Shown in pieces: positions 2,126 to 47,217 of a DNA stretch of 47,217 nucleotides. Each line of letters starts with the position of its first letter. The stretch's first letter is position 1. The position numbers were made by a program, and so were the translations under genes. The notes under the pieces are model-generated. The model saw nothing but the letters and a program-made list of their open reading frames with translations, ran no database searches and was not told the origin of the DNA. Origin of the DNA: a virus. The stretch lies in the IMG/VR virus record IMGVR_UViG_3300027513_000024, positions 1 to 47,217 of that record. One strand, written 5' to 3'.

Positions 2126-2328
2126 AGCGCCATCCGCCGTCGAATGGGACCGGAAAAATCGACACGGCGGCCGAGGACCGCGGGCTCGAGTGCGCGCGAT
2201 GCGGGTGCCGGCACTTCTATACCCTCGAGTCGCGGCCCACGTGGGGGAGGCAGGTCCGCCGCCGGCGCGAGTGCCGGAACTGCGGGGCGCTCAAAACGAC
2301 CTATGAGGCAGACCGGCGACCGCGGTAA
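2122..2328 (+). CDS. Small NrdR-like zinc-ribbon protein
   Basis: 68 residues, starting in an ATGA overlap with terL. It contains CARC, then 23 residues on CRNC, around ESRPTWGRQVRRRRECRNCG. This closely follows the N-terminal zinc ribbon of the ribonucleotide-reductase repressor NrdR (CPxC ... DSRP ... RRRREC..C), including the final TYE. The ATP-cone domain of NrdR is absent, so only the DNA-binding ribbon is kept. Its place between terL and portal suggests co-expression with packaging genes. It could be a nucleic-acid-binding packaging accessory or a stand-alone regulator; the sequence does not decide. Confidence 0.8.
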   Translation: MKRHPPSNGTGKIDTAAEDRGLECARCGCRHFYTLESRPTWGRQVRRRRECRNCGALKTTYEADRRPR

Positions 2329-2388
2329 GGCGGCGGGGGCTTCTCGATCGGCAGTGGGCCGTACCACTCGAGCGACTCTTGTAGGTCG

Positions 2389-2700
2389 TCATGATCTTCG
2401 TTCCTTGTCGAGCAGCACGCGGATCCCATTGGCGAAGCAGGCGCCGCGACGCTCGCCGTGCACATAGACCCCATTCAGGTTGTCGAACTGGGCTCGGTCT
2501 CCGTCTCTGCAATGACCGCACACCAACGGGCACGATTCCTCGAGAGTTTTGAGGCGGCTCGCCTTCTCGCGGGCGGCGACGATGTCTTGAAGCTGATAGT
2601 ACGCAGATAATTCATCGGGCGTCACCATTTGGTTCATGATGCGCAGCGCGAGATTGTGCAACTCGTCGTCGTTCCGCATCGTCTGTTCGAGCTCGTTCAT
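2389..2700 (-). CDS. Reverse-strand small cysteine-containing protein between terL and portal
   Basis: 103 residues from ATG 2700, chosen over an upstream in-frame start because a -10-like box lies directly upstream. The sequence begins MNELEQTMRNDDELHNLALRI, has a predicted helical middle, and carries CPLVCGHC followed by a single Cys near the end (ACFANGIRVLL), a possible metal site. It is the only gene on the minus strand in the first 25 kb and lies between two essential late genes, the position of a cargo gene (moron) with its own promoter. Its function is not recognised. Confidence 0.6.
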   Translation of the reverse strand: MNELEQTMRNDDELHNLALRIMNQMVTPDELSAYYQLQDIVAAREKASRLKTLEESCPLVCGHCRDGDRAQFDNLNGVYVHGERRGACFANGIRVLLDKERRS

Positions 2701-4355: not shown

Positions 4356-6321
4356 GCACCCGAAGACACTCTCGCTCATCTGCCCTGCGGGCCTCGTGCT
4401 CGCGGCCGATGGCGACGGGAAGAAGCTCCCGACGTTCTCGATGGTCGCCTACACCGGCGCGCCGATCCGCGTGTCCATGTGGTGGGACCCGGTCGTGATC
4501 GACCTCGGTGGAGTGTCCACTCCCACGCAGTCCGTTGCGATTCGCCGCAACCACGATCCGAGCAAAACCATCGGGCACTCGGACGCTGTGGCAATCCGAG
4601 ATGGCCAGATCGTCGCAACCGGCGTGCTCTCGTTCGACACCGAGTCGGCGCGCGAGGTCGCGAGCTCGGCGAAGAACGGGTTCCCGTGGCAGGCGTCGGT
4701 GGGAATGGACGCCAACCAGGTCGAGTTCATTGCCGAGGGCAAGTCAACAGAAGTGAACGGCCGGATGGTCGACGGGCCGATCGACGTGATTCGAAAATCG
4801 ACCCTTCGCGAGATCAGTTTCGTGGACTTGGGCGCCGACTCCGGCACGAACGTGTCGGTCGCAGCGTCCGCAAAGGAGACGGAAATGGCAGTCAAGCACG
4901 AGGACAAGGATTCGCCCGCCGTCGAGGCGAGCGAGCCGGCGACGAAGGGCGCAGCTGCCACCGTCACCGAGACGAAGCCGAAGGTTGAGGCGCTGGGACC
5001 AGTGCCTGATCCTGCGGCTCAGGATCTGATCGCGGCGATGCGCACGCAGAGCGCGGGCGAGATGCGCCGCCAGGCGGCGATCCAGAAACTCGCCGGCCGG
5101 GAACACGGCGAGCTCGCGGCCAAAGCCATCGAGGAGAACTGGTCCCTCGAGAGGGCTGAGCTCGAGATGCTTCGCGCCGCGCGTCCGACTGCGCCCGCCG
5201 TGCACGTTGGCGGCGGTGGGATCGACGCAGCGACGATCGAGGCCGCGGCCTGTATCGCTGGCGGCTTGCGGAACATCGAGAAGAAGTTCGAACCCAAGAT
5301 CCTGGACGCTGCCCACAAGGCGTTCAAAGGGCGGATCGGGCTTCAGGACATCATCGCCATCGCCGCGCAGCAGGGCGGGTGGCAGGGCCGGTCGGTAAAG
5401 GGCGACATGCGCGGCGCACTCGAGGCCGCGTTCTCCACGCTCTCGCTCCCCGGGATCATGTCGAACACGGCGAACAAGTTCCTGCTCGAAGGATTCATGG
5501 CGGTCGAGCGGACCTATGCCAACATCTCGAGCACGAAGAACGTCTCCGACTTCAAGACGAACACGAGCTACCGCCTGAACGGCGGCTTCGAATACGAGGA
5601 GATCGCACCCGACGGTGAGTTCACGCACGGCACGGTGAGCGAGGACACGTTCGAGAACCGCGCGCGCACTTACGGGAAGATGTTCGCGATCACCAGGACG
5701 GACATCATCAACGACGACCTGGGCGCCCTGACGCAGATCCCGATGCGGCTCGGCCGCGGCGCGGCGCTCAAGTTGAACAAGGTCTTCTGGACCGCGTTCC
5801 TGGACAACGCGGCCTTCTTCAGCGTGGCGCATGCCAACCTGATCACGGGCGCCGGCGGCAATCTCTCGCTCACCTCGCTCCAGACGGCGCTTGCTCTCTT
5901 CCGAAACCAGACGGATCCGGATGGAAACCCGGTGGCGATCGAGCCGCAGTGGCTGCTCGTGCCGCCGTCGCTCGAGGTGACCGCGTTCAACATCTTCAAC
6001 TCGATCGAGTACCGCGACACGACGACGAGCGTCAAATTCGGCACCAGCAACGTGTTCGCCGGGCGCTTCCGGCCGATCGTGTCGACCTACCTGTCGAACT
6101 CGACGATCCCCGGCTTCTCGACGATCGCGTGGTATCTGCTCGCCGATCCATCGGCTCTCTCGACGATCGAGATCGCCTACCTGAATGGCGTGCAGGAACC
6201 GACGGTCGAGACCGCCGAGATGGACTTCAACGTCTTGGGTATTCAAATGCGCGGCTATCACGACTTTGGCGTCGCGAAGCAGGAGTACCGCGCTGGCGTG
6301 AAGAGCGAAGGCACGACCTAA
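4339..6321 (+). CDS. Prohead protease / scaffold / major capsid fusion protein
   Basis: 660 residues. The N-terminal 175 residues are an HK97-type (U35) prohead protease with the expected His (NHDP, H72), Ser (WQASVG, S120) and Glu (LREISFVDLGAD, E158). Residues about 180-330 are Ala/Glu/Lys-rich and helical, as expected of a scaffold. From about 330 on the protein is the HK97-fold major capsid domain (LLEGFMAVERTYANISS, TYGKMFAITRTDIINDDLGAL, QWLLVPPSLE). In most relatives these are two or three genes. Fusion implies that the protease must cut itself and the scaffold away during maturation. The ribosome-binding site CGGAGAG lies inside the end of the portal gene. Confidence 0.93.
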   Translation: MAKKTEHPKTLSLICPAGLVLAADGDGKKLPTFSMVAYTGAPIRVSMWWDPVVIDLGGVSTPTQSVAIRRNHDPSKTIGHSDAVAIRDGQIVATGVLSFDTESAREVASSAKNGFPWQASVGMDANQVEFIAEGKSTEVNGRMVDGPIDVIRKSTLREISFVDLGADSGTNVSVAASAKETEMAVKHEDKDSPAVEASEPATKGAAATVTETKPKVEALGPVPDPAAQDLIAAMRTQSAGEMRRQAAIQKLAGREHGELAAKAIEENWSLERAELEMLRAARPTAPAVHVGGGGIDAATIEAAACIAGGLRNIEKKFEPKILDAAHKAFKGRIGLQDIIAIAAQQGGWQGRSVKGDMRGALEAAFSTLSLPGIMSNTANKFLLEGFMAVERTYANISSTKNVSDFKTNTSYRLNGGFEYEEIAPDGEFTHGTVSEDTFENRARTYGKMFAITRTDIINDDLGALTQIPMRLGRGAALKLNKVFWTAFLDNAAFFSVAHANLITGAGGNLSLTSLQTALALFRNQTDPDGNPVAIEPQWLLVPPSLEVTAFNIFNSIEYRDTTTSVKFGTSNVFAGRFRPIVSTYLSNSTIPGFSTIAWYLLADPSALSTIEIAYLNGVQEPTVETAEMDFNVLGIQMRGYHDFGVAKQEYRAGVKSEGTT

Positions 6322-29617: not shown

Positions 29618-30598
29618 ATGAAGACCGACACAGAACCGACCGTCGTGGGCGATCTGGCCGAGGCAACCGCGCTCACCATCTCTCGCGACTCGGGTGTGCT
29701 CGCGCTCGCGACGATGAGCGACGAGGACTTCGCCTCGCGGATCGCGGCGCTGAAGCGTGGCCAGGAGCGCGTGCTGCAGATCCAGCGCGAGCTCCTGCGG
29801 CCGACGTGGACTTACGGCACCATCCCCGGCACGCCGAAGCCCACCCTTTACAAGCCGGGCGCGGAGAAGCTCTGCGCCTTCTATGGACTGGTGACGGCCT
29901 TCGTCGTGAACGTCGAGCATGGCGACGGCGTGAGCACTCCACCCTTGCGCGTCGAGGTCACGTGCACTCTCAGGCACGGGTCGAACGATGGGCCCGTGGT
30001 CGCGCAGGGGATCGGCTCCGCGAACGCATGGGAGAAGAAGTACCGCTATCGCGCCGCGCAACGCTCGTGCCCACAGTGCCACGTCGAGGCGATCAAGCGC
30101 AGTCAGTACGCCGACAAGGAGACCGGCGACAAAGGCTGGTATTGCCACCAGAAGGCCGGCGGCTGCGGCGCACAGTTCCACAGCAAGGACCCGTCGATCA
30201 CCGGGCAGGAGTGCGGCCAGGTCGACAACCCAGATCCCTACGACGTCGATAACACGCTGGTGAAGATGGCTTCCAAGCGCGCGCACGTCGATGCCACGCT
30301 CAGAGCGACGGCGACGAGCGGACTCTTCTCGCAGGACCTGGAGGACCAGCTACCCACCGATGTCGAGACCGGACCGAAGGCACCGCAGCGCGCCAGCAAG
30401 CCCGAGGGCAAAGCGTCGCCCGCACTGATCGGCAACGACGAGCGGAAGAAGCTGTTCTCCGTCGCCAAGGCCGCGGGCTGCACCGACGACGAGCTGCGGG
30501 AATACCTCTACTCCACCTTCGGCTTCGAATCCTCCGCGGCGATCACGCGCGCTTCGGTGGAAACGATCTACGAGTGGTTGCGGAAGGGTGGCGCCTGA
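29618..30598 (+). CDS. Candidate ssDNA-annealing / recombination protein with zinc site
   Basis: 326 residues. Conserved-looking segments are TYGTIPGTPKPTLYKPGAEKL, VVAQGIGSANAWEKKYRYR, a zinc site formed by CPQC and WYCHQKAGGCGAQF, and NTLVKMASKRAHVDATLRATA. The TLYK-GAEKL / MA-KRAHVDA pattern recurs in phage proteins encoded beside exonucleases, and the next gene is a PD-(D/E)XK nuclease. I infer a two-component recombination system of exonuclease plus annealing protein. The C-terminal 60 residues are a separate helical domain after a Lys/Pro-rich linker. I do not claim a specific family such as RecT or Erf. Confidence 0.55.
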   Translation: MKTDTEPTVVGDLAEATALTISRDSGVLALATMSDEDFASRIAALKRGQERVLQIQRELLRPTWTYGTIPGTPKPTLYKPGAEKLCAFYGLVTAFVVNVEHGDGVSTPPLRVEVTCTLRHGSNDGPVVAQGIGSANAWEKKYRYRAAQRSCPQCHVEAIKRSQYADKETGDKGWYCHQKAGGCGAQFHSKDPSITGQECGQVDNPDPYDVDNTLVKMASKRAHVDATLRATATSGLFSQDLEDQLPTDVETGPKAPQRASKPEGKASPALIGNDERKKLFSVAKAAGCTDDELREYLYSTFGFESSAAITRASVETIYEWLRKGGA

Positions 30599-33687: not shown

Positions 33688-34623
33688 GTGCCAGGACAAC
33701 AGCGCCGGCAGTGCGTCGGCGTGCGAAAGGACGGGGGGCCGTGTGGTATGGCTCCCCTCAAGGGATCGGACAGGTGTGTCAACCATGCGGGCGAGGCGGA
33801 GGCGGTTGCACGTCGGGATGAGGCGGGCAAACGAGCGCGGCTGGTGTCCATGGTCGCGCGCAAGGCGGCCATGGTGAAGCGCGAACTGCGAGCGATTGGC
33901 ACGCACTTCGGCGGCTGGGTCGTTGCTGGCCACCTACTTTCCATCGCCGATGATGCAGTCGATGCACTCACTGCATTCTCTGCATCTCCGGAAGGCCCCG
34001 TTTTCGATGCACACAATGCACTCAGTGCATTGAGCCAAGGCTTCCCCGGAAATAGTAGTTGGTACCCCTCTAAGAAGAAAGACATACCCCCAGAGTGTGG
34101 AGTACCACACTCTTCGCCCCCGCATGCATCCAACACGTCCAACACATCACACCATCCTCCGCCCGACGGCCTCGACCCGAGGCTGATCGATCGCCCACCG
34201 GACGAGCAGATCCGGAAGGCCGTGGCCAAGAAGCCGACGGCGGGCCTCAGCCAGGAGCAGCGTTCCATGTTCGCGCGCTTCTGGGCGGTCTACCCCCGGC
34301 ATGAGAAACGAGCCGATGCCGAGAAGGCTTGGGCGAAACATGCGCCCGATGAGGAACTGACGCGGCGTATCGTCCGAGCCATCGAGCTGCAGATCCTGCA
34401 CACATGGCGGGACAGCGACTTCATCCCCCACCCGACGACCTGGCTCAACGGCAGGCGCTGGGAAGACGAGATCCAAACCAAAGCACCAATCACGCGCGGC
34501 AAAACGGTGGAGCTCCCTCGTGCTCAAGCGGCCGCGCTCAGGTTCCTCGCGAAGGAGGCGCAACGCGAGGCCATGGCCCGAGCAGCGCGAGGCGAGACGG
34601 ACAACCCAGGAGAAAGCGAATGA
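33688..34623 (+). CDS. Replication initiation-like protein with N-terminal zinc site
   Basis: 311 residues from GTG 33688 with GGAGGTGGGG upstream. Residues 8-33 read as a small zinc module (C-x8-C-x9-C-x3-H: QCVGVRKDGGPCG, RCVNHAG). A low-complexity linker follows (Ser/Ala/His/Pro, about 85-160). The C-terminal domain, MFARFWAVYPRHEKRADAEKA ... SDFIPHPTTWLNGRRWEDE, is common in phage replication proteins with helix-turn-helix domains. The linker-coding DNA holds a repeat and palindrome cluster, as lambda's origin lies within gene O. The next gene is helicase-loader-like. Overlap ATGA. Confidence 0.65.
   Translation: MPGQQRRQCVGVRKDGGPCGMAPLKGSDRCVNHAGEAEAVARRDEAGKRARLVSMVARKAAMVKRELRAIGTHFGGWVVAGHLLSIADDAVDALTAFSASPEGPVFDAHNALSALSQGFPGNSSWYPSKKKDIPPECGVPHSSPPHASNTSNTSHHPPPDGLDPRLIDRPPDEQIRKAVAKKPTAGLSQEQRSMFARFWAVYPRHEKRADAEKAWAKHAPDEELTRRIVRAIELQILHTWRDSDFIPHPTTWLNGRRWEDEIQTKAPITRGKTVELPRAQAAALRFLAKEAQREAMARAARGETDNPGESE
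33952..34113. other. Candidate replication origin: iterons and palindromes inside the replication gene
   Basis: Seven copies of a GATGCACTC-like unit lie in 81 bases: plus strand at 33952, 33961, 34006 and 34015; minus strand at 33971, 33980 and 34025. The 19-base CAATGCAC-TCA-GTGCATTG (34014-34032) is a perfect dyad. A less GC-rich stretch (about 34049-34085, GGAAATAGTAGTTGG and TAAGAAGAAAGACAT) follows. Another perfect dyad with 9-bp arms, AGAGTGTGG and CCACACTCT (34092-34113), comes next. The layout (iterons, AT-richer DNA, dyad, inside an initiator gene) resembles lambdoid origins. Confidence 0.6.
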
Positions 34624-35159: not shown

Positions 35160-35866
35160 GCACGCACAAGAAGGGCGGCGAAGGGAAGAAGAGCGAGGCC
35201 GACCTCGTTCGAGACGCCCGCGAGCGCATCGTCCGCCAGGCCGAGCTCGCGCTCATCCAGCTCAACGACGAGATGCAGGCGAAGGGCCCCGGCAACACCA
35301 AGGCGCCGATGCACACCCAGGACGAGTACCTCATCCTCCGCCGCCGGATCACGCTCGCGGCGAACCTGACGGAGGAAGACCTGATGCAGCGGCTGGTGTT
35401 CGCCGCGGGCAAGGGTGGGTTTGCGCCCGACGTCGATCGCACGCTCACGTGGGACGGCCTCGAGCGACATCGGGACGGCACGGAGCGGAAAGAGGCGATG
35501 GAGCGCGGGGAGGTGACGACACGGAGCCTCGCGTCCGCGCTGAAGGATCACCTCACGGGGTTGAAGCGCCCGCCGGGAGAGCGAGGGCCGGTCGCTGGTG
35601 CTGGTGCGCAGGCGCCGCGCGTGGTGATCACGATCGAGCAGCAACTGTCGATTCTGGAGAACCAGGAGCGCATGGGGGCGATCACCCCTGTTCAGCACGA
35701 GGTCCGCTCACACGAGGCAAGGCAAGGCAAGGTGTGGTCGGTGGAGCAGCGCGGAAGGATCGAGACGGCGCTGTCGCACCTGCTCGAGGCGAGCATCCGC
35801 GGCGAAGTGAGCGAAGAGGACTATGACCGGCAGAGGAAGGCGTTGCTGGATGGGGGGCCAACGTGA
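35156..35866 (+). CDS. Replication-region protein of unknown function
   Basis: 236 residues. Basic start (THKKGGEGKKSEADLVRDAR), a helical region (IVRQAELALIQLNDEMQAKG, EYLILRRRITLAANLTEEDL), a Gly/Ala/Pro linker (RGPVAGAGAQAP) and a helical C-terminus (EQRGRIETALSHLLEASIRG). It may be a replication accessory given its coupling to the loader gene. No family recognised. Confidence 0.55.
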   Translation: MSTHKKGGEGKKSEADLVRDARERIVRQAELALIQLNDEMQAKGPGNTKAPMHTQDEYLILRRRITLAANLTEEDLMQRLVFAAGKGGFAPDVDRTLTWDGLERHRDGTERKEAMERGEVTTRSLASALKDHLTGLKRPPGERGPVAGAGAQAPRVVITIEQQLSILENQERMGAITPVQHEVRSHEARQGKVWSVEQRGRIETALSHLLEASIRGEVSEEDYDRQRKALLDGGPT

Positions 35867-36216
35867 GCATCCAGAGCCTACGGGACATCATCAGGGACCA
35901 CGATCACGGGATCGTTCGGGGACTGGCGAGTATCGACAACCTCGAGGAAAACATCCTCGACTGTGCCCCCGATCGAAGGCGAGGTGCAGACGTGAACGGC
36001 ACCTGCTACGCATGCGCCAACCCTCTCGGCGAGCAATGGGTCTGGCTCAAGGTCCAGGATACTGGAACAACGAGCGGCACGGGCTGGCGCCCGTTCTGCT
36101 TGCACTGTGCCTATCTGAATAGGCCGGCAAAGTACACGCTCACTTACAACCCCGAGTGGACGGGCTGCATCGAATACCTAGTCGATGCAAAAGAGCGGCG
36201 AGGAGGCGAAGCGTAA
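35863..36216 (+). CDS. Fused small protein: MS-LRDII start joined to a CxxC protein
   Basis: 117 residues from GTG 35863. The beginning, MSIQSLRDIIRDHDHGIVRG, resembles the paralogs at 39580 and 40738 (MSPLREILE, MSTLREILE). At residue 34 the frame enters a 30-base junction repeat in the non-standard frame (APDRRRGADVN) and continues into a cysteine protein (GTCYACANPLGEQWVW ... FCLHCAYLNRP). GTG 35992 inside the repeat could start the second part alone. I read it as two genes fused by a frame-changing deletion. Confidence 0.5.
   Translation: MSIQSLRDIIRDHDHGIVRGLASIDNLEENILDCAPDRRRGADVNGTCYACANPLGEQWVWLKVQDTGTTSGTGWRPFCLHCAYLNRPAKYTLTYNPEWTGCIEYLVDAKERRGGEA
35966..35997 (+). repeat. Gene-junction repeat J1, copy 1
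   Basis: Begins CCCCCGATCGAAGG and ends GGTGCAGACGTGAAC. Here read as APDRRRGADVN inside a fused gene; the other frame would end PPIEGEVQT-stop. Confidence 0.8.
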
Positions 36217-36271
36217 GGCGATTACGCTGCGGCTTGAGCATGAGACGAGAAAGGCGTTGATGGATGGGTGA
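36185..36271 (+). CDS. 28-residue ribbon-helix-helix-like fragment
   Basis: MQKSGEEAKRKAITLRLEHE then TRKALMDG. The KAITLRL strand followed by a helix is the start of a ribbon-helix-helix fold, but the second helix is missing. It overlaps both neighbours by 32 and 8 bases. It may be a real peptide, a remnant, or chance. Confidence 0.3.
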   Translation: MQKSGEEAKRKAITLRLEHETRKALMDG

Positions 36272-36551
36272 CAAGCTCGAACGCATGGACGAGGTGTGCC
36301 TTCGGTTCCGCACTCGGACGGAAGATGATGTCACATGGGTCATCGCAGGGGTGGTGTTCGATGACGGTGTGATGACGGCACTTGCACGGCTCCGCGTGAG
36401 TGTCATCGACGGTGCGGGTGACCCGCTGTACCAGGATTGGGTCAGCCTCATCTCGAAACTCTACGCCGCGAGCATCGAGCGCGCGACAGGCGCGACGGTC
36501 GCGCAGATGAAGCGTGCCAAGCCGAACCGCGAAGGAGAGGTCGATGGGTGA
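36264..36551 (+). CDS. Small protein, function unknown
   Basis: 95 residues from ATG 36264. A beta-rich first half (EVCLRFRTRTEDDVTWVIAGV) is followed by a helix (QDWVSLISKLYAASIERATG). It ends NREGEVDG, overlapping the next start. No family recognised. Confidence 0.5.
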   Translation: MGDKLERMDEVCLRFRTRTEDDVTWVIAGVVFDDGVMTALARLRVSVIDGAGDPLYQDWVSLISKLYAASIERATGATVAQMKRAKPNREGEVDG

Positions 36552-36792
36552 GCACGCACCCTTCACGGAATCGCGCATAGTCTTCGTCTGCCGTGACCTC
36601 GATGGCCGCCGCCAGCGCTTCACGTTCATCGGCGACCATGTCGTGTGGACCGTGCAGGGCGTGGGCAGCACCGTGCTGAACGAGTTCAATTTCCGCCGCG
36701 TGCTCGACCTCGCACAACAAGAACGGACCGCTGGCGCCCAGGTAGAAGGCCACGAGCCCGGCGCCAGCGGCGTGGGGGTTGTCACACCATGA
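36544..36792 (+). CDS. Small protein, function unknown
   Basis: 82 residues from ATG 36544. Strand-rich (SRIVFVCRDLDGRRQRFTFIG, HVVWTVQG) then one helix (FNFRRVLDLAQQERTAG). No motif recognised. ATGA overlap with the following broken gene. Confidence 0.5.
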   Translation: MGEHAPFTESRIVFVCRDLDGRRQRFTFIGDHVVWTVQGVGSTVLNEFNFRRVLDLAQQERTAGAQVEGHEPGASGVGVVTP

Positions 36793-36922
36793 CCAAGCAA
36801 CTTGTCATCATCCTCGGTTCAGCGACCGAGAGGGACTCTCCGAGTTCATCGCCGAGCTGCAAGGGGCGAGGGTGCGTGCGTGGAAAGGGAAGGAGCTGAA
36901 GCAGGTGGGGGCGGGGGGATGA
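36789..36922 (+). pseudogene. Frameshifted small gene
   Basis: The ATG frame begins MTKQLVIILGSA and then turns into Ser/Arg/Gly-rich nonsense. The -1 frame from about 36818 reads FSDREGLSEFIAELQGARVR and AWKGKELKQVGAGG, ending in an ATGA overlap with the next gene. Together they make a plausible 44-residue protein, so one base appears to be gained or lost near 36812-36822, either a real mutation or an error in the sequence. Confidence 0.5.
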
Positions 36923-37437
36923 GCCAAGCAGTTCGCGGGTACTATGCTTCCGGCGGGATGTATTGGGTAGTGCCATGCGCCAACAAACGGTGCGACAAGA
37001 AAGCAAGGGCGAGATACCCACAGCAGCAAAGGTGCTGTCGGAGTTGCGCGATAGCAAAGGAGCACCTGCGCAGGTTCCTCAGCAAGCGGCCGCCTCATGC
37101 GATCGAATGGAGGTGGCACGGCCGGAAGGTGCCGTGCAGGGAGTGGGTTGTGATGTGTTCTATCTGCACTAGGCCACACCCGTGGGGCGTGTATCCCACC
37201 CACATTGAACGGTGCCGACTCTGTCGGCAGGAAATCAGTGAGATCGACAGAAACCTTAAAAGGAGAACCTGGACATGGCAAAGCTTCGTAAAGGAATCGC
37301 TAACGGTAGCAAGGCTGGCAATCGGTCAAAGCAAGCCCGGGTCACCCCATCAACGGACGAGAGTTCGACGTCGTTTCGCCTTGCTCAAAAAGGTGTCCGG
37401 ACGAGTCGCGAGTTCGCCGCCGTCGCGTCTGCTCTGA
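36919..37437 (+). CDS. Cysteine-rich protein with long out-of-frame tail
   Basis: 172 residues from ATG 36919. Cysteine sites: VPCANKRCDKK, RCCRSCAIA, CSICTRP, RCRLC; two zinc ribbons are likely. After about residue 118 the frame runs across the start of the next gene and overlaps it by 163 bases. The last 54 residues (Ser/Arg/Pro-rich) look like the shadow of that gene, so the natural stop has probably been lost. Confidence 0.5.
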   Translation: MSQAVRGYYASGGMYWVVPCANKRCDKKARARYPQQQRCCRSCAIAKEHLRRFLSKRPPHAIEWRWHGRKVPCREWVVMCSICTRPHPWGVYPTHIERCRLCRQEISEIDRNLKRRTWTWQSFVKESLTVARLAIGQSKPGSPHQRTRVRRRFALLKKVSGRVASSPPSRLL

Positions 37438-37595
37438 TGTGCGACGCGATCACGAACATGGTTCCGCCGCAGCGCGTCAACGCGGCCTGTAACGCGGCGG
37501 GAAAGCTGCTCAAGGTGGTTGAGATGGAACTAAAGTACGGGAAGAAGGTGGCCAACGGCACCGCGCCGCTCATGCTCACGACGGAGGCTCGTTGA
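37275..37595 (+). CDS. Small basic protein, function unknown
   Basis: 106 residues with AAGGAG 11 bases upstream. Lys/Arg-rich start (MAKLRKGIANGSKAGNRSKQ), then a helical domain (EFAAVASALMCDAITNMVPP, VNAACNAAGKLLKVVEMELKYG). The P-RVNAACNAAGKLLK pattern is often seen in phage small proteins. It may bind DNA. Confidence 0.6.
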   Translation: MAKLRKGIANGSKAGNRSKQARVTPSTDESSTSFRLAQKGVRTSREFAAVASALMCDAITNMVPPQRVNAACNAAGKLLKVVEMELKYGKKVANGTAPLMLTTEAR

Positions 37596-37795
37596 CGACC
37601 CGCTGCAAAGCCTGCAAGGAACCGATCGTCTGGCTGAAGACCAAGGACGGCAAGAACATGCCGGTCAACGACACGGCCGCGGCACGGCGCTGCGCGGAGG
37701 CTGAGACGCTGTTCGAGCTCGGCGTGGAGGAGATCGTGCCGCATTGGTCGACGTGCACGGAGCCAGGACTGTTTCGCAGGAAGGAAAAGCCATGA
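37592..37795 (+). CDS. Small single-ribbon protein
   Basis: 67 residues from TTG 37592, overlapping the previous stop. RCKACKEPIVWLKTKDGKNM then PVND is a common phage zinc-ribbon beginning (CxxC, a Trp, KNMPVN). A later HWSTC may complete the site. Function unknown. Confidence 0.6.
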   Translation: MTTRCKACKEPIVWLKTKDGKNMPVNDTAAARRCAEAETLFELGVEEIVPHWSTCTEPGLFRRKEKP

Positions 37796-38013
37796 GCGAA
37801 GACCCGATCCTCGCGAGGATGGATCAGCTGATCGAGCGGCATTGCGTCGCCTACTATCGCGAGCAAGCACGACAAGAGTTGCGCGAGCTGATGGCCGACG
37901 TGGCGATCGAGCAGATGCTCTACTGGACTGGTCAGAGTATCGGGCGCCCTCTATGGGTCGATGAGATCCGCGCGCGCTTCGGCGTGCCGCCGAGCGAGGA
38001 GCCGAAGACGTGA
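37792..38013 (+). CDS. Small helical protein
   Basis: 73 residues from ATG 37792 in an ATGA overlap. Helical (ARMDQLIERHCVAYYREQAR, ELMADVAIEQMLYWTGQ). The end (PSEEPKT) overlaps the next GTG. No family recognised. Confidence 0.55.
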   Translation: MSEDPILARMDQLIERHCVAYYREQARQELRELMADVAIEQMLYWTGQSIGRPLWVDEIRARFGVPPSEEPKT

Positions 38014-38168
38014 GCGAGAAGAAGCGACGCATCGTCACGGTTACGGCGCAATGCGTGGTCTGCAAGCATCGCCGCGAGATCAAGGCTGGAGAGGTTCCGC
38101 TCGGTGGTCTACCCGAGTGCGACAAGTGTCACTCGGTCATGGTGGCGGTGAAGGCGAGCGGCCGATAA
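38010..38168 (+). CDS. 52-residue zinc-ribbon protein
   Basis: GTG 38010 in a GTGA overlap. It has CVVCKHRREIKAGEV and CDKCHSVMVAVKAS, two CxxC pairs 20 residues apart, a simple ribbon. It may bind nucleic acid. Confidence 0.6.
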   Translation: MSEKKRRIVTVTAQCVVCKHRREIKAGEVPLGGLPECDKCHSVMVAVKASGR

Positions 38169-38176
38169 GGAACCTT

Positions 38177-38368
38177 ATGGCGACCTGGATTATGAGCTGG
38201 ATTAGATCGCCACGACGCATGTGGAAAATCTACGTGCGGAATCGGTGTCCTGACTGCAACGGGCTTCTGTGCTGGGGCCAATGGAATGACGGCGCATGGG
38301 CTGGACGGCCGTTCTGCCTCAACCGACACGAGCAACAGCAGTCGGAGGCCAAGCCTCATGGCGACTGA
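38177..38368 (+). CDS. Small Trp-rich protein with CxxC
   Basis: 63 residues; AAGGA five bases before ATG 38177. WIMSWIRSPRRMWKIYVRN, RCPDCNGLLCWGQWND, then a Cys and His (FCLNRHE) that could complete one zinc site. It ends QQSEAKPHGD, a variant of the junction repeat J2. Confidence 0.5.
   Translation: MATWIMSWIRSPRRMWKIYVRNRCPDCNGLLCWGQWNDGAWAGRPFCLNRHEQQQSEAKPHGD
38343..38360 (+). repeat. Gene-junction repeat J2, diverged copy
   Basis: CGGAGGCCAAGCCTCATG: the end SEAKP of one gene and the ATG of the next. Confidence 0.5.
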
Positions 38369-38564
38369 ATCAAGGCGAGAATGTAGCACTTGCCGGTACT
38401 GGGACAGGCCCGCTGCCGATATCGTAGGCCGATGCCGTCGCCATCCTCCCTGTCGGTCCGAGAAACGCTCAACGCACGGCGTCAGCTATGGGGTCTGGCC
38501 ATTCACCGAGGCAAGAGACTGGTGCGGCGAATGGGAGCAGCAGCCGGAGGCCAAGGAACCTTGA
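38358..38564 (+). CDS. Small cysteine protein (C-x2-C-W ... DWCGEW type)
   Basis: 68 residues. CSTCRYWDRPA, GRCRRHPPC, then WPFTEARDWCGEWE. The order CxxCxxW, GxCxxxPP, WPxT..DWCGEW is a widespread phage small-protein pattern with three or four metal-binding cysteines, somewhat rubredoxin-like. It ends QPEAKEP-stop within repeat J2. Confidence 0.65.
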   Translation: MATESRRECSTCRYWDRPAADIVGRCRRHPPCRSEKRSTHGVSYGVWPFTEARDWCGEWEQQPEAKEP

Positions 38565-38565
38565 G
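38541..38565 (+). repeat. Gene-junction repeat J2, copy
   Basis: CAGCCGGAGGCCAAGGAACC then TTGAG; encodes QPEAKEP-stop and contains the TTG start of the next gene. Confidence 0.7.
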
Positions 38566-38785
38566 CACGCAATCTTGCAAGACATGCTCCCATGCTAAGT
38601 GGGAGCGGGCGGATCGTGGATGGTGTTGCTTCGATGTGGAACCGATTTGGCGAGCGTGCCGCGAACAGCTCCCGGCGTCGGTCTGTACTTTCACGGGGTT
38701 GACGAAGGCCTATCTCTATCCCGACGTGCATGATGTTGGCAAGGCCTGTGTTCAGTGGAGGCAGCCGGAGGCCAAGCAACCATGA
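38561..38785 (+). CDS. Small cysteine protein
   Basis: 74 residues from TTG 38561. SCKTCSHAKWERADRGWCCF, then WRACREQLP, VCTF and ACVQW give six or seven cysteines, a second member of the CxxC..W class found one gene upstream. It ends QPEAKQP-stop, again in repeat J2. Confidence 0.55.
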   Translation: MSTQSCKTCSHAKWERADRGWCCFDVEPIWRACREQLPASVCTFTGLTKAYLYPDVHDVGKACVQWRQPEAKQP

Positions 38786-38786
38786 G
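38762..38786 (+). repeat. Gene-junction repeat J2, copy
   Basis: CAGCCGGAGGCCAAGCAACC then ATGAG; encodes QPEAKQP-stop and the ATG of the next gene. Confidence 0.7.
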
Positions 38787-39249
38787 AGACCTGCTCAACG
38801 AGCGAATCGATTCTATCGCCGCTGCGGCTGCCCGTTCCCAACAAGATCGAGCCAGGATCGAGATGGAACTGCGCTTGCTGATCGTGGATTGTTGCGCAGC
38901 TCAGCAATGCAGCGGGTGCGGCAACCCCGAAGAGCACGAACGGTGCATGCGGCAGCGCTTCGCGCCGGAACCGCGCATGACTTGGTTTGCGCACGGAAAG
39001 CGAGGCCAAGCAACCATGAGCGAAGCCCCAGCTGCCGTTGCCCCCGATCGAAGGCGAGGCGCAGACGTGAACAGGGCAACTGACGAGGAACGCCACGCTC
39101 GCGCGATCCAGAGAGCCGAGAAGGCGGTGGTGCGTGCGGCGATCAAGCACTACAGAATCGAGGATTGCCGCGGATGGATACGGTGTCCGATCTGTGATGT
39201 CACGGCCGAGCTGCTCGCAGCACGCGCAGCGGCGAAGAAGGGAACATGA
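38782..39249 (+). CDS. Mosaic fused protein spanning J2 and J1 repeats
   Basis: 155 residues. Part A (1-70) is helical with CSGCGNPEEHERC. It then runs through a third J2 copy in a different frame (GKRGQATMSEA) and a J1 copy in the non-standard frame (APDRRRGADVN). Part C (NRATDEERHARAIQRAEKAV ... CPICDVTAELLAARAAAKKGT) is a paralog of the cassette at 39834 and 41292. GTG 39067 inside J1 could start part C on its own (60 residues). It appears to be a chain of at least three gene pieces. Confidence 0.55.
   Translation: MRDLLNERIDSIAAAAARSQQDRARIEMELRLLIVDCCAAQQCSGCGNPEEHERCMRQRFAPEPRMTWFAHGKRGQATMSEAPAAVAPDRRRGADVNRATDEERHARAIQRAEKAVVRAAIKHYRIEDCRGWIRCPICDVTAELLAARAAAKKGT
39002..39020 (+). 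repeat. Gene-junction repeat J2, embedded copy
   Basis: GAGGCCAAGCAACCATGAG, 18 or more bases identical to the copy at 38762, but here inside a gene and out of the usual frame. Confidence 0.65.
39041..39072 (+). repeat. Gene-junction repeat J1, copy 2
   Basis: Begins CCCCCGATCGAAGG and ends GGCGCAGACGTGAAC; read as APDRRRGADVN. One base differs from copy 1 over 32. Confidence 0.8.
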
Positions 39250-39255
39250 ACGAAC

Positions 39256-39576
39256 ATGAGCATACAACACCATGGCCAAGGCGAAGACTTACCAAGGCCC
39301 ATCTCCGACATCATAGCTACCAAGCGGATGTTGGGTGAGTTGCTTAATCGTGCACAGCGAAACTACCCGAGCGGCCGCGTATCGGCTGATGATGAGGGCG
39401 AAACAGCTTTTGCGATTGCCGTCGATCACGCCCATCGAATCATTCGCATTCACTTCACAAAACCAATGGAGTGGCTTGGCTTCGATCTCGCTTCGGCTCG
39501 TCATCTTCGCAGTCTGCTCAATGAAAAGATCCAGGAACTCGAAGCCGCCGACGTTCCGTTGGAGAAGGGAAGGTGA
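39256..39576 (+). CDS. Small protein, function unknown
   Basis: 106 residues from ATG 39256. Helical start (DIIATKRMLGELLNRAQRNY), a central sheet (ETAFAIAVDHAHRIIRIHFT) and a final helix (LRSLLNEKIQELEAADVPL). A compact alpha/beta fold is likely. It ends in the sequence GAAGGTGACGCATGAGC that also starts the gene at 40738. Confidence 0.55.
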   Translation: MSIQHHGQGEDLPRPISDIIATKRMLGELLNRAQRNYPSGRVSADDEGETAFAIAVDHAHRIIRIHFTKPMEWLGFDLASARHLRSLLNEKIQELEAADVPLEKGR

Positions 39577-39579
39577 CGC

Positions 39580-39837
39580 ATGAGCCCCCTGCGGGAAATC
39601 CTGGAAGCGAACACGCGCGCCCCCGTCAATTACATGAAGCTCGAGGCCAAGGTCCTCGCCTGGCACAAGGCCGAACTCGAGAGCTACGGGGAGAAGGTGC
39701 GGGAGGCGTGTGCGACGTATCTTTTAGGTCACATCGAAAAGCTGATAAGTGATGGCGGCAGGGCGTCACCAACCGAGTTGGCAAACGTCGTTCTTGCCGC
39801 TCCACTGCCCCCGATCGAAGGCGAGGAGCAGACGTGA
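39580..39837 (+). CDS. Cassette paralog P1a (MS-LREIL family)
   Basis: 85 residues. Shares its start (MSPLREILE), a central VLAWHKAELE and its end (PPIEGEEQT) with the gene at 40738-40980; the middle differs in sequence and length. Helical. The 3' end is repeat J1. No known family. Confidence 0.6.
   Translation: MSPLREILEANTRAPVNYMKLEAKVLAWHKAELESYGEKVREACATYLLGHIEKLISDGGRASPTELANVVLAAPLPPIEGEEQT
39808..39837 (+). repeat. Gene-junction repeat J1, copy 3
   Basis: Begins CCCCCGATCGAAGG and ends GGAGCAGACGTGA; encodes PPIEGEEQT-stop and contains the GTG of the next gene. Confidence 0.85.
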
Positions 39838-40097
39838 CGCACGCTTGCGATATGGACGGCTGCATGAACATCGTGTCCAATTACCATTCGTTTTGCTACG
39901 ACCACAGGGAGCCCGACTGCCTCGCCCGTGCGGTCACAAGGGCAGAGAAGGCGGTGGTGCGTGCGGCGGTAGCCTTCAATCATGTGCGATTTTCACATCC
40001 GCCACTGGGGGAGTTTATGGGCTACCTGCATCGATTCGAGGATGCGGTCGACCACTTGCTCGCTGCGCGCGCGGCCGCGAAGAAGAAAGGCAAGTAA
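39834..40097 (+). CDS. Cassette paralog P2a (MTHACDMDGC family)
   Basis: 87 residues from GTG 39834. The N-terminal 46 residues (ACDMDGCMNIVSNYHSFCYD, HREPDCLARAVTRAEKAVV) are nearly identical to those of the gene at 41292-41534. The cysteines and histidines there could bind zinc (C5, C10, C23, H26). The middle (AFNHVRFSHPPLGEFMGYLH) is unrelated, and the end (LLAARAAAKKKGK) is again shared. Confidence 0.65.
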   Translation: MTHACDMDGCMNIVSNYHSFCYDHREPDCLARAVTRAEKAVVRAAVAFNHVRFSHPPLGEFMGYLHRFEDAVDHLLAARAAAKKKGK

Positions 40098-40120
40098 AAT
40101 GCAAAGCGTGAAGGTGAGGC

Positions 40121-40339
40121 ATGACGAACGAGATCATGAAGGACAGCCGCAAGCTGGTGGCGTTTCTCTACGTCTTGATGCGGGAGGACGTGGTGCCGGG
40201 ACGCATCGAGACCATACTCGAGCGGCACGTCTTCGACGTCGAGTCCGAGTACAGCAACGTACATCTGGCGCGGTACGCACAAGAGATCGCCGCACGGCTA
40301 AGCGAGCAGCAGCCCGAGGGCAAAAATGCTAGAGAGTGA
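40121..40339 (+). CDS. Small helical phage protein
   Basis: 72 residues; GAGGC precedes ATG 40121. Pattern KLVAFLYVLMREDVVPGRIE ... YSNVHLARYAQEIAARL is one I associate with many phage small proteins; its role is unknown. Helical. Confidence 0.6.
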   Translation: MTNEIMKDSRKLVAFLYVLMREDVVPGRIETILERHVFDVESEYSNVHLARYAQEIAARLSEQQPEGKNARE

Positions 40340-40427
40340 AGTGCGCGAACGATACGGTCTTCAGCGGGCGGTGCATCAAGGGGTGCCTCGGTAGCGATCC
40401 TCGTAAACATCGTACAAGGCAGAGGCG

Positions 40428-40511
40428 ATGACTAAGCTTGACGCCCTATCAGACGTGGAGCGCGGCGAGTATGATCCTCGAGATGGGGGCGCGATTGACG
40501 GTGACGCATGA
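40428..40511 (+). CDS. 27-residue acidic peptide
   Basis: MTKLDALSDVERGEYDPRDG then GAIDGDA. AGAGG lies before ATG 40428 and the stop overlaps the next ATG. The preceding 88 bases (40340-40427) hold nothing else. A short coupled peptide is plausible. Confidence 0.4.
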   Translation: MTKLDALSDVERGEYDPRDGGAIDGDA

Positions 40512-40741
40512 GAGCAGACTGGAACGTAACCGTGTGCGCGGAATGTCTACGCGCGTCCTGCTGGCACGGCGACGACATGTGTGCCAAGGCAAGATCGGCA
40601 GATATCAAGCTGATCCGCGCGTCGCAACTCGACAGCCTTGCGAGGGAGCATCCGTCGCACTACTCGCGCGAGACGATCCTTCGCACGTCGGGCTCATTGC
40701 CGGCGCTCCGCGCCCTACCCGACATCGAAGGTGACGCATGA
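40508..40741 (+). CDS. Small cysteine protein (CAECLRASCWHG type)
   Basis: 77 residues. VCAECLRASCWHGDDMC carries four cysteines and a histidine, enough for one zinc ion, followed by a helical part (LIRASQLDSLAREHPSHYS). The CLRASCWHG string is common in phage small proteins. It ends in an ATGA overlap. Confidence 0.6.
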   Translation: MRADWNVTVCAECLRASCWHGDDMCAKARSADIKLIRASQLDSLAREHPSHYSRETILRTSGSLPALRALPDIEGDA

Positions 40742-40980
40742 GCACGCTGCGGGAGATCCTGGAGCAGCACAACATCATCAGTCAGGCCCGACGTCGCATA
40801 GAGCCGGCCATTCTCGCCTGGCACAAGGCCGAACTCGAGCGGTATCTGACGCAGGCAGCTACCATCGCGTTCGATGACATTGGCTCAGACCATCTCCGCC
40901 AGGCCATTCTTGCGTTGATCGAACAGGAGGGCGCCCACGGCCCGGAGGATCCCCCGATCGAGGGCGAGGTGCAGACGTGA
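40738..40980 (+). CDS. Cassette paralog P1b (MS-LREIL family)
   Basis: 80 residues. Shares MSTLREILE, ILAWHKAELE and PPIEGEVQT with P1a. The start region GAAGGTGACGCATGAGC is identical to that of P1a and the end is repeat J1. Helical middle (FDDIGSDHLRQAILALIEQE). Confidence 0.6.
   Translation: MSTLREILEQHNIISQARRRIEPAILAWHKAELERYLTQAATIAFDDIGSDHLRQAILALIEQEGAHGPEDPPIEGEVQT
40951..40980 (+). repeat. Gene-junction repeat J1, copy 4
   Basis: Begins CCCCCGATCGAGGG and ends GGTGCAGACGTGA; encodes PPIEGEVQT-stop and contains the GTG of the next gene. Confidence 0.85.
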
Positions 40981-41237
40981 GCCCAGTCAAGCAGAGCGGC
41001 CGACGGTTTGTCGGCGTCGGGATCCATGCGCTGTATGGTCCATGGTTCTCGTGCGGCGTGCACATCGACATCGGCGCGCCACATGTGGCCCTGCACCTTC
41101 TCTGGTGGCAGGTCTACATTGGTTGGATGCGAGAATCGACCGAGGCAGATCAGACGGCGGCGTTGACGATGATCGACCAGGAGCGCGCATTACCGGCTCG
41201 AGGATTGTCGAGAGTGGGCCGCGTGCGCGGTATGTGA
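40977..41237 (+). CDS. Small phage protein with out-of-frame cassette tail
   Basis: 86 residues from GTG 40977. The first 60 residues (GVGIHALYGPWFSCGVHIDI, HVALHLLWWQVYIGW) form a Trp/His-rich strand pattern common in phage small proteins. The last 20 (PARGLSRVGRVRGM) are an out-of-frame reading of the cassette P2 C-terminus, so the original end has been replaced. Confidence 0.55.
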   Translation: MSPVKQSGRRFVGVGIHALYGPWFSCGVHIDIGAPHVALHLLWWQVYIGWMRESTEADQTAALTMIDQERALPARGLSRVGRVRGM

Positions 41238-41295
41238 TGCGGCCGACCGCCTGCTCGCTGCGCGCAAGGCCGCGAAGAAGAAGGTGAACGCATGA
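41185..41295 (+). pseudogene. Out-of-frame remnant of a P2 cassette C-terminus
   Basis: Read in the frame of 41197, this gives HYRLEDCREWAACAVCDAAD then RLLAARKAAKKKVNA-stop, closely matching HYRIEDCRGWIRCPICDVTA ... ELLAARAAAKKGT at the end of the gene at 38782-39249. It has no start and lies under the end of the preceding gene. Its stop overlaps the ATG of the next cassette. Confidence 0.65.
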
Positions 41296-41534
41296 CGCAC
41301 GCTTGCGATATGGACGGCTGCATGAACATCGTGTCCAATCACCATTCGTTTTGCTACGACCACAGGGAACCGGACCGCCTGGCCCGTGCGGTCACAAGGG
41401 CAGAGAAGGCAGTGGTACATGAGGTGCTGTGGCATCTACGCAAGGGACATGTGATCGCTCAGGTGAGCATTCACCATGCCGGCAAGCGCTTGCTCGCTGC
41501 GCGCGCGGCTGCGAGTAAGAAGGCGAAGACATGA
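41292..41534 (+). CDS. Cassette paralog P2b (MTHACDMDGC family)
   Basis: 80 residues. Residues 1-46 nearly equal those of P2a; by eye about six base differences in 110. The middle (HEVLWHLRKGHVIAQVSIHH) is different, and the end (RLLAARAAASKKAKT) is shared. ATGA overlaps on both sides. Confidence 0.65.
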   Translation: MTHACDMDGCMNIVSNHHSFCYDHREPDRLARAVTRAEKAVVHEVLWHLRKGHVIAQVSIHHAGKRLLAARAAASKKAKT

Positions 41535-42106
41535 GCGAGCAGAAGCCGCCGCGGTTGAGCGACAAGCGGATTGCGGAGCTTGAGTCAAACTGCTCATTCC
41601 GCAGCGACTGCGACTCCCGCGACATCTCGATTGCGCTTGCCGAACTCCAAGACTGGCGCAACACGCAGCGCGCGGTCATGCAGGAGACGTGCACCTTGCC
41701 GGCGGACATGAGACATTGCACGTGTGTGCCAATGCTCCGGAAGCGCATCGCCGATCTCGAGAGCGAGTGGAGCAAGCCGGAGCCAGTGAGCATCCTCGAG
41801 GACGCCATCGGCCCGACGGAAAGCGTGTTCCAGGAGTGCCCGACCTGCCGCGCGATACCAGTCCCGCACCTTCTCTGTATCGCCTGCTTACACAACCGCT
41901 CCCTGATCGGGCGCCTCACGCGCGAGAACGAAAGGCTGGAAACGCGCGCGGACTTCCTGGTCGATGAGGTGACACGCCTGGTGTCTGCCAGGCTCGATCG
42001 GATGAGCAACGTCGCCGAGCGCGCCGCGGCCGTGGCGAGAGAGGACATGAAGCGCCAGTGTGTGGAGAAAGTACGCAGCGCCTTCAGAGCCTGGCAATTG
42101 TCCTGA
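41531..42106 (+). CDS. Coiled-coil protein with zinc site
   Basis: 191 residues. N-terminal helix (LSDKRIAELESNCSFRSD), a central zinc site (CPTCRAIPVPHLLCIAC) and a C-terminal coiled coil (RLTRENERLETRADFLVDEV). Last gene of the small-gene array. A hairpin with 6-bp arms (GTCGCG/CGCGAC, 42117-42140) follows and may end transcription. Function unknown. Confidence 0.6.
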   Translation: MSEQKPPRLSDKRIAELESNCSFRSDCDSRDISIALAELQDWRNTQRAVMQETCTLPADMRHCTCVPMLRKRIADLESEWSKPEPVSILEDAIGPTESVFQECPTCRAIPVPHLLCIACLHNRSLIGRLTRENERLETRADFLVDEVTRLVSARLDRMSNVAERAAAVAREDMKRQCVEKVRSAFRAWQLS

Positions 42107-42572
42107 TCGTGAACCCGTCGCGAAAGAGTGTGAGCGCGACTCGGCGGCGGAATGGGGTCATTTTCCCGGTTCCAGTAGCTTGTCGAGCGCCTCCAGCTCA
42201 CGGGTGAGCTGATCGTCATCCGGCATGTTCGTCTCCCTCGATTGGGTGGAGGTCCAATACGGCGACGAGGAGTACGACACGCGCATCGTGCGACATAGCG
42301 ACGAGGAAGAACGCCACCTCGATCGCAGCTGACACCACCCACCCCTAACACGCACACCCCGCGCGCACGGCTAGAGACCCTCCCTTTCGCGCCAATCCGC
42401 CGCAATTGACGCCCCCCCATCCCGAAGCGCATCATCCCACTGGCGGGCGTGGTAGGGCTGGCCGGCTCTACCACCGACAGGTCGAAGCGGGTGCCTTTCC
42501 CGACTGCCGTTTGCACCGTGTAGACGTGAAAGACTCCGCTTCGCGCCCGTAACGGTGCAGACATGGAGGACC
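42107..42572. other. 466-base gap before the right-end block
   Basis: No confident gene. Two short overlapping candidates exist: a minus-strand 22-codon frame (42226-42158, MPDDDQLTRELEALDKLLEP, with GGGAG upstream) and a plus-strand 35-codon frame (42225-42332, FVSLDWVEVQYGDEEYDTRI) without a ribosome-binding site. The rest is C-rich (42333-42420), with one TTGACG (42405) lacking a -10 partner. It probably separates transcription units. Confidence 0.45.
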
Positions 42573-43241: not shown

Positions 43242-45347
43242 ATGCCCGAGCCGAGCCCTCTCGATCACGCAGGGACCGCCGGTGCCGCGCAGCCGATCAT
43301 CCCCACGCCGCCGCCACCCCCGCCACCCCCGCCTCCCGACCAAAAAGCCCCAGACCATCGCATCACGGTCAAGTTCACGATCAACGAGCGCGGCTGGAAG
43401 AAGCTCATCACGCCCATCGTCGCCACGTTCGACTCAGGGGCGACTGGCGTGCACCTTTTCCCGCAGGACCAATTCCTCGAGGGTCACGCACCACAGGACG
43501 CGACGGGACATATCTGGCGCTCCTGGTTGCAGCCGATGTCCTTCAACGAGCCGGAGCGATGCCTGCGTATCACGTGGTGGCACTACAAGTTCAAGGACGG
43601 GAGCTGGTGGATCGCCGGCGCGGTCCTGAACGACTCGATCGAGGCACCTCTCCCGCGCATGCGCGGCGTCATGGAGGTCAACCTCTGCGACCTCGACGGC
43701 AAGGTCCGCGAATCCTTCCCGTCCGGGGTGTGTGTCATCGCCCTGCAGGAGGGGTATTCCTTCTCCTTCGGCGCCCCCGCCCGGTTCTTGAACTTCGGCG
43801 CGGCCAAGTACTGGATCCAGAACTTTGGCGAAGCCGGCGGCGTGGTACCCCCTGACCGACTCTGGGAGCCTGTCACGGCGCCCGATCGCATCGGCGGGAA
43901 TGGTCCCTGGCAGGCGCAATGGACCCCGCGTCGCATCGACGTCAAGAAGGCAGACGGCAGCTACCAATACCCCCGCTATTGGGACACGAGCGACCCACGG
44001 AACCCGCCAATCGGTGCGACCATTGGCGAGATCGAGGTGCCGGACCTGTACAACGACCAGACGCACGCTCACCACAGGGAGGTCTTCCGGTCACCCTACG
44101 AGACGGGCTGGCAGGCGCACGAGCGCGCGAACAACAACGCCGGCGTTAGGGCCGTGCTGCGCGCGCTCTGGCAATGGTCCGCGCGCCAGGTGGGGTCTTG
44201 GTCACCCAAGTTCGGGCCGCCCTACTGGATCCCCGGACGGCCAGCCTACCTCGCCGGCCTTGATGGCTGGATGCCTGACGCCGAGACCCGATACAAGCTC
44301 ACCGGGACGGACGCGGTCGCGCTGAAGCCCTGGATCGGCCACGAGGGACGAGTCGAGATCACGAAAGGCAACCTGTACCAGTTTCCCGAATGTTTCGGCC
44401 AGGACTCGGGCAAGCCGCTCAGTGAGAACGCGATCTCAGCGCTCGAGCTCGCCGGCGGCAGGTACAGCGGCGGTTACTCCGATACGCAAGCGTGGGACCT
44501 CGAGCACGGTGGCGCGGAAAACCTGGCGGCGGCGGCGATTCTCTTGGCCGATCCGTTGGCGATGCATCACCTGCACCACTGGTGCGAGGAGTACATCACG
44601 AACGGGATCGTGAAGCACAGCAGTCGAGCGTCCGGCTGGATGATCGTGATCTCGCTCTACGGGTGGCTCTGCTTCAAGGACAAGCCCTCTTTCCGTCAGG
44701 ACGCCGAGCGCTACCTCTCCTACGCACGCTCCATCGCGCAGTGGGTCTGGCAGGCACGCCTGGACGAGACGGCCTACCAGGGTCTGCTCGGTCGGAACTA
44801 CGGCGGCCGGGATCTGTCGATCCCCGAAGAGCAGACCGGTGGGTTCGAAGGCGCTTTCGGCTCCGCCATCGCACTGAACGCCTTCTGTATGGGTGCGCAG
44901 GTGGACCCGAACCCCGCGGAACTCGGTCTCTGGCTCGAACTGGTCGAGTACACCGCGAACCTCTTCCTTCAGCCCGGAATCATCCAGCGACCGAGCCCGA
45001 CCTTCAAAGGCGGCGTGCTCGACTCCTGGAATCTGTTCGGGCCGAAGAGCGAGGCCGAGATGCCGGGCAAGACGATCGATGAGCGCCTGCGCGCGAACAG
45101 CGGCGCCTATTCCGGCGTCGACTGGCTGGCAGACCAAGGCTGGTCAGGGCCCGCGCTCTCGAAAGCATCGCGGGTGCTCAAGGCAGCACCTCGCGCGAGC
45201 TGGGCGGCGATCGACGCGCTCGCCAAGGAGATCAGGGGGTATCAGGTCCTCGAGGTCTACAACGGCAACTCGTTCCTCTCGCCAAAGGGCGCGGACGGGT
45301 GGGCCATGTACTTCGAGCAGGCCGCAACCTACGGATGGCCGAAGTGA
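43242..45347 (+). CDS. 701-residue enzyme-like protein of unknown function
   Basis: AGGAGG upstream. Order: a short Ala/Gly start, a run of ten prolines (about residues 24-33), then a beta-rich domain (40-200; HRITVKFTINERGWKKLITP, FDSGATGVHLFPQDQF). A Trp/Tyr-rich central part follows (200-400). A helical C-terminal domain (400-700) has paired helices and conserved-looking loops (YSDTQAWDLEHGGAENLAAA, YGWLCFKDKPSF, PEEQTGGFEGAFGSAIALNA). The helical part resembles an (alpha/alpha) toroid as in some glycoside hydrolases and polysaccharide lyases, but no catalytic set can be named. There is no export signal. It could be virion-associated or act on host polysaccharide. Confidence 0.6.
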   Translation: MPEPSPLDHAGTAGAAQPIIPTPPPPPPPPPPDQKAPDHRITVKFTINERGWKKLITPIVATFDSGATGVHLFPQDQFLEGHAPQDATGHIWRSWLQPMSFNEPERCLRITWWHYKFKDGSWWIAGAVLNDSIEAPLPRMRGVMEVNLCDLDGKVRESFPSGVCVIALQEGYSFSFGAPARFLNFGAAKYWIQNFGEAGGVVPPDRLWEPVTAPDRIGGNGPWQAQWTPRRIDVKKADGSYQYPRYWDTSDPRNPPIGATIGEIEVPDLYNDQTHAHHREVFRSPYETGWQAHERANNNAGVRAVLRALWQWSARQVGSWSPKFGPPYWIPGRPAYLAGLDGWMPDAETRYKLTGTDAVALKPWIGHEGRVEITKGNLYQFPECFGQDSGKPLSENAISALELAGGRYSGGYSDTQAWDLEHGGAENLAAAAILLADPLAMHHLHHWCEEYITNGIVKHSSRASGWMIVISLYGWLCFKDKPSFRQDAERYLSYARSIAQWVWQARLDETAYQGLLGRNYGGRDLSIPEEQTGGFEGAFGSAIALNAFCMGAQVDPNPAELGLWLELVEYTANLFLQPGIIQRPSPTFKGGVLDSWNLFGPKSEAEMPGKTIDERLRANSGAYSGVDWLADQGWSGPALSKASRVLKAAPRASWAAIDALAKEIRGYQVLEVYNGNSFLSPKGADGWAMYFEQAATYGWPK

Positions 45348-47156: not shown

Positions 47157-47217
47157 GTGAACGATTGTCGTTCGAAAAAATCGCGCGGGTCCTTCCCGGC
47201 TACCCCTCGAGAAAGAG
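47157..47217 (+). CDS. Partial small frame running off the right end into the left end
   Basis: GTG 47157 (GGGGGA upstream) opens a frame, NDCRSKKSRGSFPATPRER, that is still open at 47217. If the ends are joined it continues through bases 1-44 (AQKPSQSVGSKRIE) and stops in an ATGA overlap with terL, making a 34-residue basic protein. It is too short for a usual small terminase. Its seamless joining supports a circular or permuted genome. Confidence 0.45.
   Translation, partial: MNDCRSKKSRGSFPATPRER

Follow-up and report, generated by a model that had tools for sequence, protein, structure and literature searches.

A repeated stop-start junction precedes different small genes in an environmental tailed phage

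Introduction

The nin genes form an interlinked chain. Short boundary sequences at the borders of such small genes have been described for the nin region of lambdoid phages (Susskind and Botstein 1978; Clark et al. 2001, both as cited in PMC3029335). A second kind of conserved sequence, the start-associated sequences (SAS) and ESAS, is known from cluster K mycobacteriophages and cluster EF Microbacterium phages (PMC3203893, PMC7302621). T4-type phages carry PeSLs, portable expression elements that are reported to mediate gene shuffling (Arbiol 2010 and Comeau 2014, as cited in PMC4503421). The locus described here had originally been thought to have no described counterpart, a claim that these three precedents do not bear out.

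Results

Four copies of a short repeat in one phage record

The window, the whole stretch of 47,217 nt analysed here, is the record of a tailed phage from environmental DNA, with terminase, portal and head genes. The phage encodes an exonuclease-like protein (PHROG 298) and a RusA resolvase, so that homologous exchange is possible. The 30-34 nt repeat, termed D3, is present in exactly four copies, all on the plus strand (Table 1). With up to three mismatches allowed, the record contains four matches and 100 shuffled versions contain none, which confirms the four near-identical copies of the original prediction. The core is 88-97% identical between copies over 32 nt, whereas the 60-nt flanks on each side are only 17-40% identical, and the identity ends abruptly at both edges. 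Copies 1 and 2 differ by a single base in 34. The four copies are therefore not the remnants of one recent tandem duplication; tandem duplication of a single unit was rejected as their sole origin on these flank identities, and it holds partly for copies 3 and 4. A search of other genomes with the 30-mer, as proposed with the original prediction, matched no other record in IMG/VR, the GTDB genomes or the phage collection.

Table 1. Coordinates of the repeat copies, neighbouring genes and related features in the window.
Feature	Position	Strand	Remarks
Second variable small-gene interval (terminase-portal)	2319..2696	-	Content differs in L006, L007 and L035
Small-gene array, all junction families	35800..42110	+	17 repeat pairs; both copies hold a gene start in 11
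117-aa ORF reading through D3 copy 1	35863..36216	+	N-terminal SIQSLRDII, then zinc-ribbon-like GTCYAC part
D3 junction copy 1	35964..35997	+	Read one base out (APDRRRGADVN) in ORF 35863-36216; SD-like GAGGTG and GTG at 35992 intact
D4 junction family (GCAGCCGGAGGCCAAG..CC-NTGAG)	38540..38565, 38761-38786, 38995-39020; partial 38338-38363	+	
77-aa ORF	39016..39249	+	8-codon remnant, followed by D3 copy 2 (out of frame) and the RATDEE gene
D3 junction copy 2	39039..39072	+	Read one base out in ORF 39016-39249; GTG at 39067 intact
D13/D14 junction family (GAAGGTGACGCATGAGC)	39569..39605, second copy at 40727, partial at 40494	+	
MSPLREILE gene	39580..39837	+	Tail within D3 copy 3
D3 junction copy 3	39806..39839	+	PPIEGEEQT-stop overlapping (GTGA) GTG of THACDM gene
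THACDM gene copy A	39834..40097	+	D3 copy 3 directly before
MSTLREILE paralogue	40738..40980	+	Tail within D3 copy 4
D3 junction copy 4	40949..40982	+	PPIEGEVQT-stop overlapping (GTGA) GTG of SPVKQS gene
SPVKQS gene	40977..41237	+	Between D3 copy 4 and THACDM copy B
THACDM gene copy B	41292..41534	+	93% DNA identity from start codon, 132 nt; unrelated junction before

The repeat is read in two frames

Structurally, each D3 copy consists of 8-9 codons of a gene tail, an SD-like GAGGNG segment, 5 nt, and a GTGA stop/start overlap. The genes that end in copies 3 and 4 use the tail as PPIEGE(E/V)QT-stop, with the GTGA overlapping the GTG of the next gene. The 117-aa and 77-aa ORFs instead run through copies 1 and 2 one base out, as APDRRRGADVN, and remain in frame with the following gene. 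Both readings had been anticipated, and both are borne out by the ORFs. The accompanying description of copies 1 and 2 as lying inside fused genes holds insofar as the read-through ORFs exist, but the fusions may be apparent only: the SD-like segment and the GTG are intact in both copies, so that a start within the repeat is still available to the downstream gene. Copy 2 lies 24 nt past the start codon of a D4 junction, and its placement looks as though an intervening gene had been lost.

The tail encoded by copies 3 and 4 raises plain paralogy as an explanation, namely that selection maintains PPIEGE(E/V)QT as the C-terminus of a duplicated gene family, the DNA repeat being a consequence of this. 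The two upstream genes are indeed paralogues (MSxLREILE), the LRDII gene before copy 1 may be a third, and related gene tails (GPLPIEKPEPP) occur in relatives. However, the ORFs upstream of copies 1 and 2 do not use the tail frame, and yet these two copies differ at only 1 base in 34. Moreover, the repeat reaches the start codon and ends there, and its most variable base is the second codon position of the tail frame (V/A/E). We consider paralogy by itself an unlikely account of the repeat, if the best placed of those competing with the reading favoured below.

A probable start signal before different genes

In all four copies, the SD-like GAGGNG stands 5 nt upstream of the GTG, the ribosome-binding position of otherwise unrelated genes. 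Predicted pairing energies with the 16S rRNA end range from -7.5 to -11.2 kcal/mol, compared to a mean of -4.2 kcal/mol at random positions; the best 5% of these background positions reach -9.5 kcal/mol, so that the D3 copies are not all extreme. Translation probably starts at the D3 GTGs, judging from this arrangement of the sequence. Together with the GTGA overlap and the four different gene starts behind it, these features agree with the original view of D3 as a translational junction before different genes.

Conservation well past the length of an SD segment, combined with the position at gene starts, would also suit a regulatory site in mRNA or DNA, bound at selected gene starts by a phage or host factor as in the SAS-like motifs of cluster K and EF phages. 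Such a site seems rather improbable, somewhat more so than plain paralogy. The SAS consensus GGGATAGGAGCCC is not above chance in the record, with one match at 2 mismatches, located outside the array, where 1.15 are expected. The repeats form no conserved hairpin (z -1.3 to 0.2) and have no inverted-repeat structure, and an Rfam search of D3 matched no family. A scan for promoters of the sigma-70-like type revealed neither an excess at D3 nor any such promoter in the array. Furthermore, only 4 of roughly 24 starts carry D3, and other junction types stand alongside it in the array.

Patchwork genes downstream of the junction

The gene behind D3 had been described as different each time. This is true of the four gene starts but not of the entire genes, as those after copies 2 and 3 have RAEKAVVRAA and LLAARAAAKK segments in common under different N-termini, forming patchwork bodies. 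The two copies of the THACDM gene likewise diverge at a junction. Starting at the TGA of the start overlap, their DNA is 93% identical for 132 nt, while upstream nothing obvious is shared, with D3 before one copy and an AAKKKVNA tail before the other; the whole-unit MAFFT alignment misplaced the upstream parts, and only its THACDM part was used. Gene swaps, as originally proposed, are seen within the window itself, bounded exactly by the start codon. Behind the SPVKQS gene, positions 41187-41295 hold an out-of-frame copy of a HYRxEDCR...LLAARKAAKK gene tail, likely a recombination scar. None of the array genes tested against Pfam, PHROGs and NCBIfam gave a significant family.

D3 lies in an array rich in repeated junctions

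The array containing D3 holds 17 repeat pairs (minimum 18 nt and 88% identity), compared to 0-2 in other 6.3-kb stretches and 0-1 in Markov simulations. A gene start is included in both copies of 11 of these pairs, whereas 5000 shifts of the starts gave 0.43 such pairs on average and never more than 4; pairs of one family depend on each other, however, and the gene starts were listed by hand. The junction families D3, D4 and D13 and the THACDM pair contribute to the start-bearing pairs; in the other 6 of the 17, a gene start is not present in both copies. When 1.78 Mb of DNA from related and control phages was scanned uniformly for junctions, D3 was the only family with at least three members, next to eleven two-member families. 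This makes its copy number unusual, but not its kind. Only junctions whose upstream frame is open for at least 30 codons enter the scan, so that copy 2 is not counted in it. Repeat pairs of 24-38 nt whose end coincides with an ATGA stop-start overlap, or lies just beyond it, were also observed in unrelated phage fragments (L067/L068, 11765 and 12265; L050, 1305 and 1929; L020, minus strand, 6244 and 6607).

Relatives reuse other junctions

Five fragments encode terminases 97-98% identical to that of the record, and the shared blocks are 91-97% identical in DNA. Searches with the array proteins and with the interval 29618-30598 found no close relative covering the array. The interval 43242-45347 retrieved only L006, which starts just past the array end and there carries small genes other than those of the record.

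Two further junctions recur in the relatives. The first, J1 (GATCGA(G/C)AAGGAG..GGCATGAGCTGCCCG), has two copies each in L035 and L008, one reading LIEKERPA-stop/ATG and the other read through as DRQGEGMSCPKC. The read-through copy sits after a short remnant, MSELQTWQVLRD, and resembles D3 copy 2 in this respect. The second, J2 (GAGCCGCCGAAGGA..ATGAGC), stands before three different genes. It has one additional base in L007, whereby the stop is lost and the genes are fused. Two-frame reading is therefore a recurring outcome and not peculiar to the D3 30-mer. One border joined to different genes in related genomes is seen for J1 and J2 (L006, L007, L008 and L035), D3 itself having matched no other record searched.

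Three further observations concern the record as a whole. The minus-strand small genes between terminase and portal form a second hypervariable site, with different sets across L005-L008 and L035 despite 97%-identical terminases. In L006, positions 5263-5915 contain the last bases of the record (47157-47217), followed about 250 bases later by its first gene; this order makes it probable that the record is close to complete and either circular or circularly permuted. Short direct repeats of the TCGATGCACTCACTGCAT type at 33950-34030, inside a replication-initiator-like gene (33688-34623), are possibly origin iterons.

Discussion

We favour, with a probability of roughly three in four, the reading of D3 as a ribosome-binding stop-start junction that was spread by duplication, deletion and recombination, kept for translation and coupling, and that acts as a passive patch of homology. 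Such a junction would comprise the tail of an upstream small gene, the SD-like segment and the GTGA overlap, and in a fast-changing small-gene array it could be copied around by these processes. It would be retained since a gene newly placed behind it may be translated at once and coupled to its neighbour, which is the selective reason that we infer. A stop-start junction with a good ribosome-binding site may thereby be a safe spot for the gain and loss of small genes: duplications and exchanges that preserve it would survive, small slips nearby would create fusions, and as a side effect the junction would offer a short patch of homology for later exchanges. Copies 1 and 2 may be scars of this process, in which an indel or the loss of an upstream gene body put the junction one base out of frame, such that the upstream frame enters the next gene while the start signal stays intact.

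Homologous recombination is a plausible route of spread, as far as the sequence can tell. Duplication and deletion would also suffice without recombination at the 30-mer, and the paralogous genes upstream of copies 3 and 4 make ordinary duplication enough there. The data fit exchange by junction homology and blind breakage filtered by selection equally.

It is improbable that the locus goes further and constitutes a dedicated cassette exchange, in which the 30-mer would be a preferred recombination site and the alternate frame would make fused proteins, as an evolved generator of small-protein diversity. An active system with its own recombinase acting at the junction is more doubtful still, to the point of being very improbable: the repeats do flank gene cassettes in direct orientation, and the phage has the exonuclease-like protein and resolvase named above, but no dedicated recombinase is recognised beside the array, and the repeat is neither an inverted repeat nor found in the other genomes searched. 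A metagenome assembly artefact is just as hard to credit, for although this is a single metagenomic record and short repeats can misjoin reads, the copies differ, their longest shared exact words (11-21 nt) are below usual assembly words, and relatives from other samples reuse junctions in the same style.

Understood as a translational junction retained in a changing array, D3 provides a clear case, in a little-known group of environmental phages, of small genes mixed at ready-made start signals. It also points to a simple by-product, in that a one-base slip at a junction can merge two overlapping genes into one fused frame. In deeply sampled relatives, shared junctions versus blind breakage as the driver of phage mosaicism becomes testable.

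Comparison with known systems

PeSLs, as far as they are outlined in PMC4503421, resemble D3 as portable expression elements tied to gene shuffling between related phages. A PeSL combines an early promoter with a stem-loop terminator, whereas D3 sits inside overlapping genes, with no sigma-70-like promoter found in the array and no stem-loop at the repeats. In SAS as in D3, a single, unusually conserved sequence recurs within a genome at the ribosome-binding position, before genes that are unrelated. SAS differ in being 13 bp long with a fixed consensus, often with an inverted repeat (ESAS), whereas D3 spans the upstream gene tail.

The boundary sequences of lambdoid phages, as summarised in PMC3029335, are likewise short sequences at the stop-start overlaps of small interlinked genes that bound gene gain and loss. 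As a control, we compared the nin genes of lambda and P22: they cease to be similar at the ninB stop and become similar again near the ninD start, ninC occurring in lambda only, and several nin junctions have a GAGG..GCATGA-like ending in common. D3, with its four different gene starts and unrelated flanks, is equally a short conserved sequence bordering exchangeable genes. Judged by eye, the nin junctions share some 12-18 nt, which for the most part correspond from genome to genome, whereas D3 extends over 30-34 nt and occurs four times within one genome, twice read in another frame. As a whole, the idea of such junctions is already known, and D3 is a real, unusually clean instance of this described evolutionary pattern, to which it adds the length of the junction and the frame-shifted fusions as new details.
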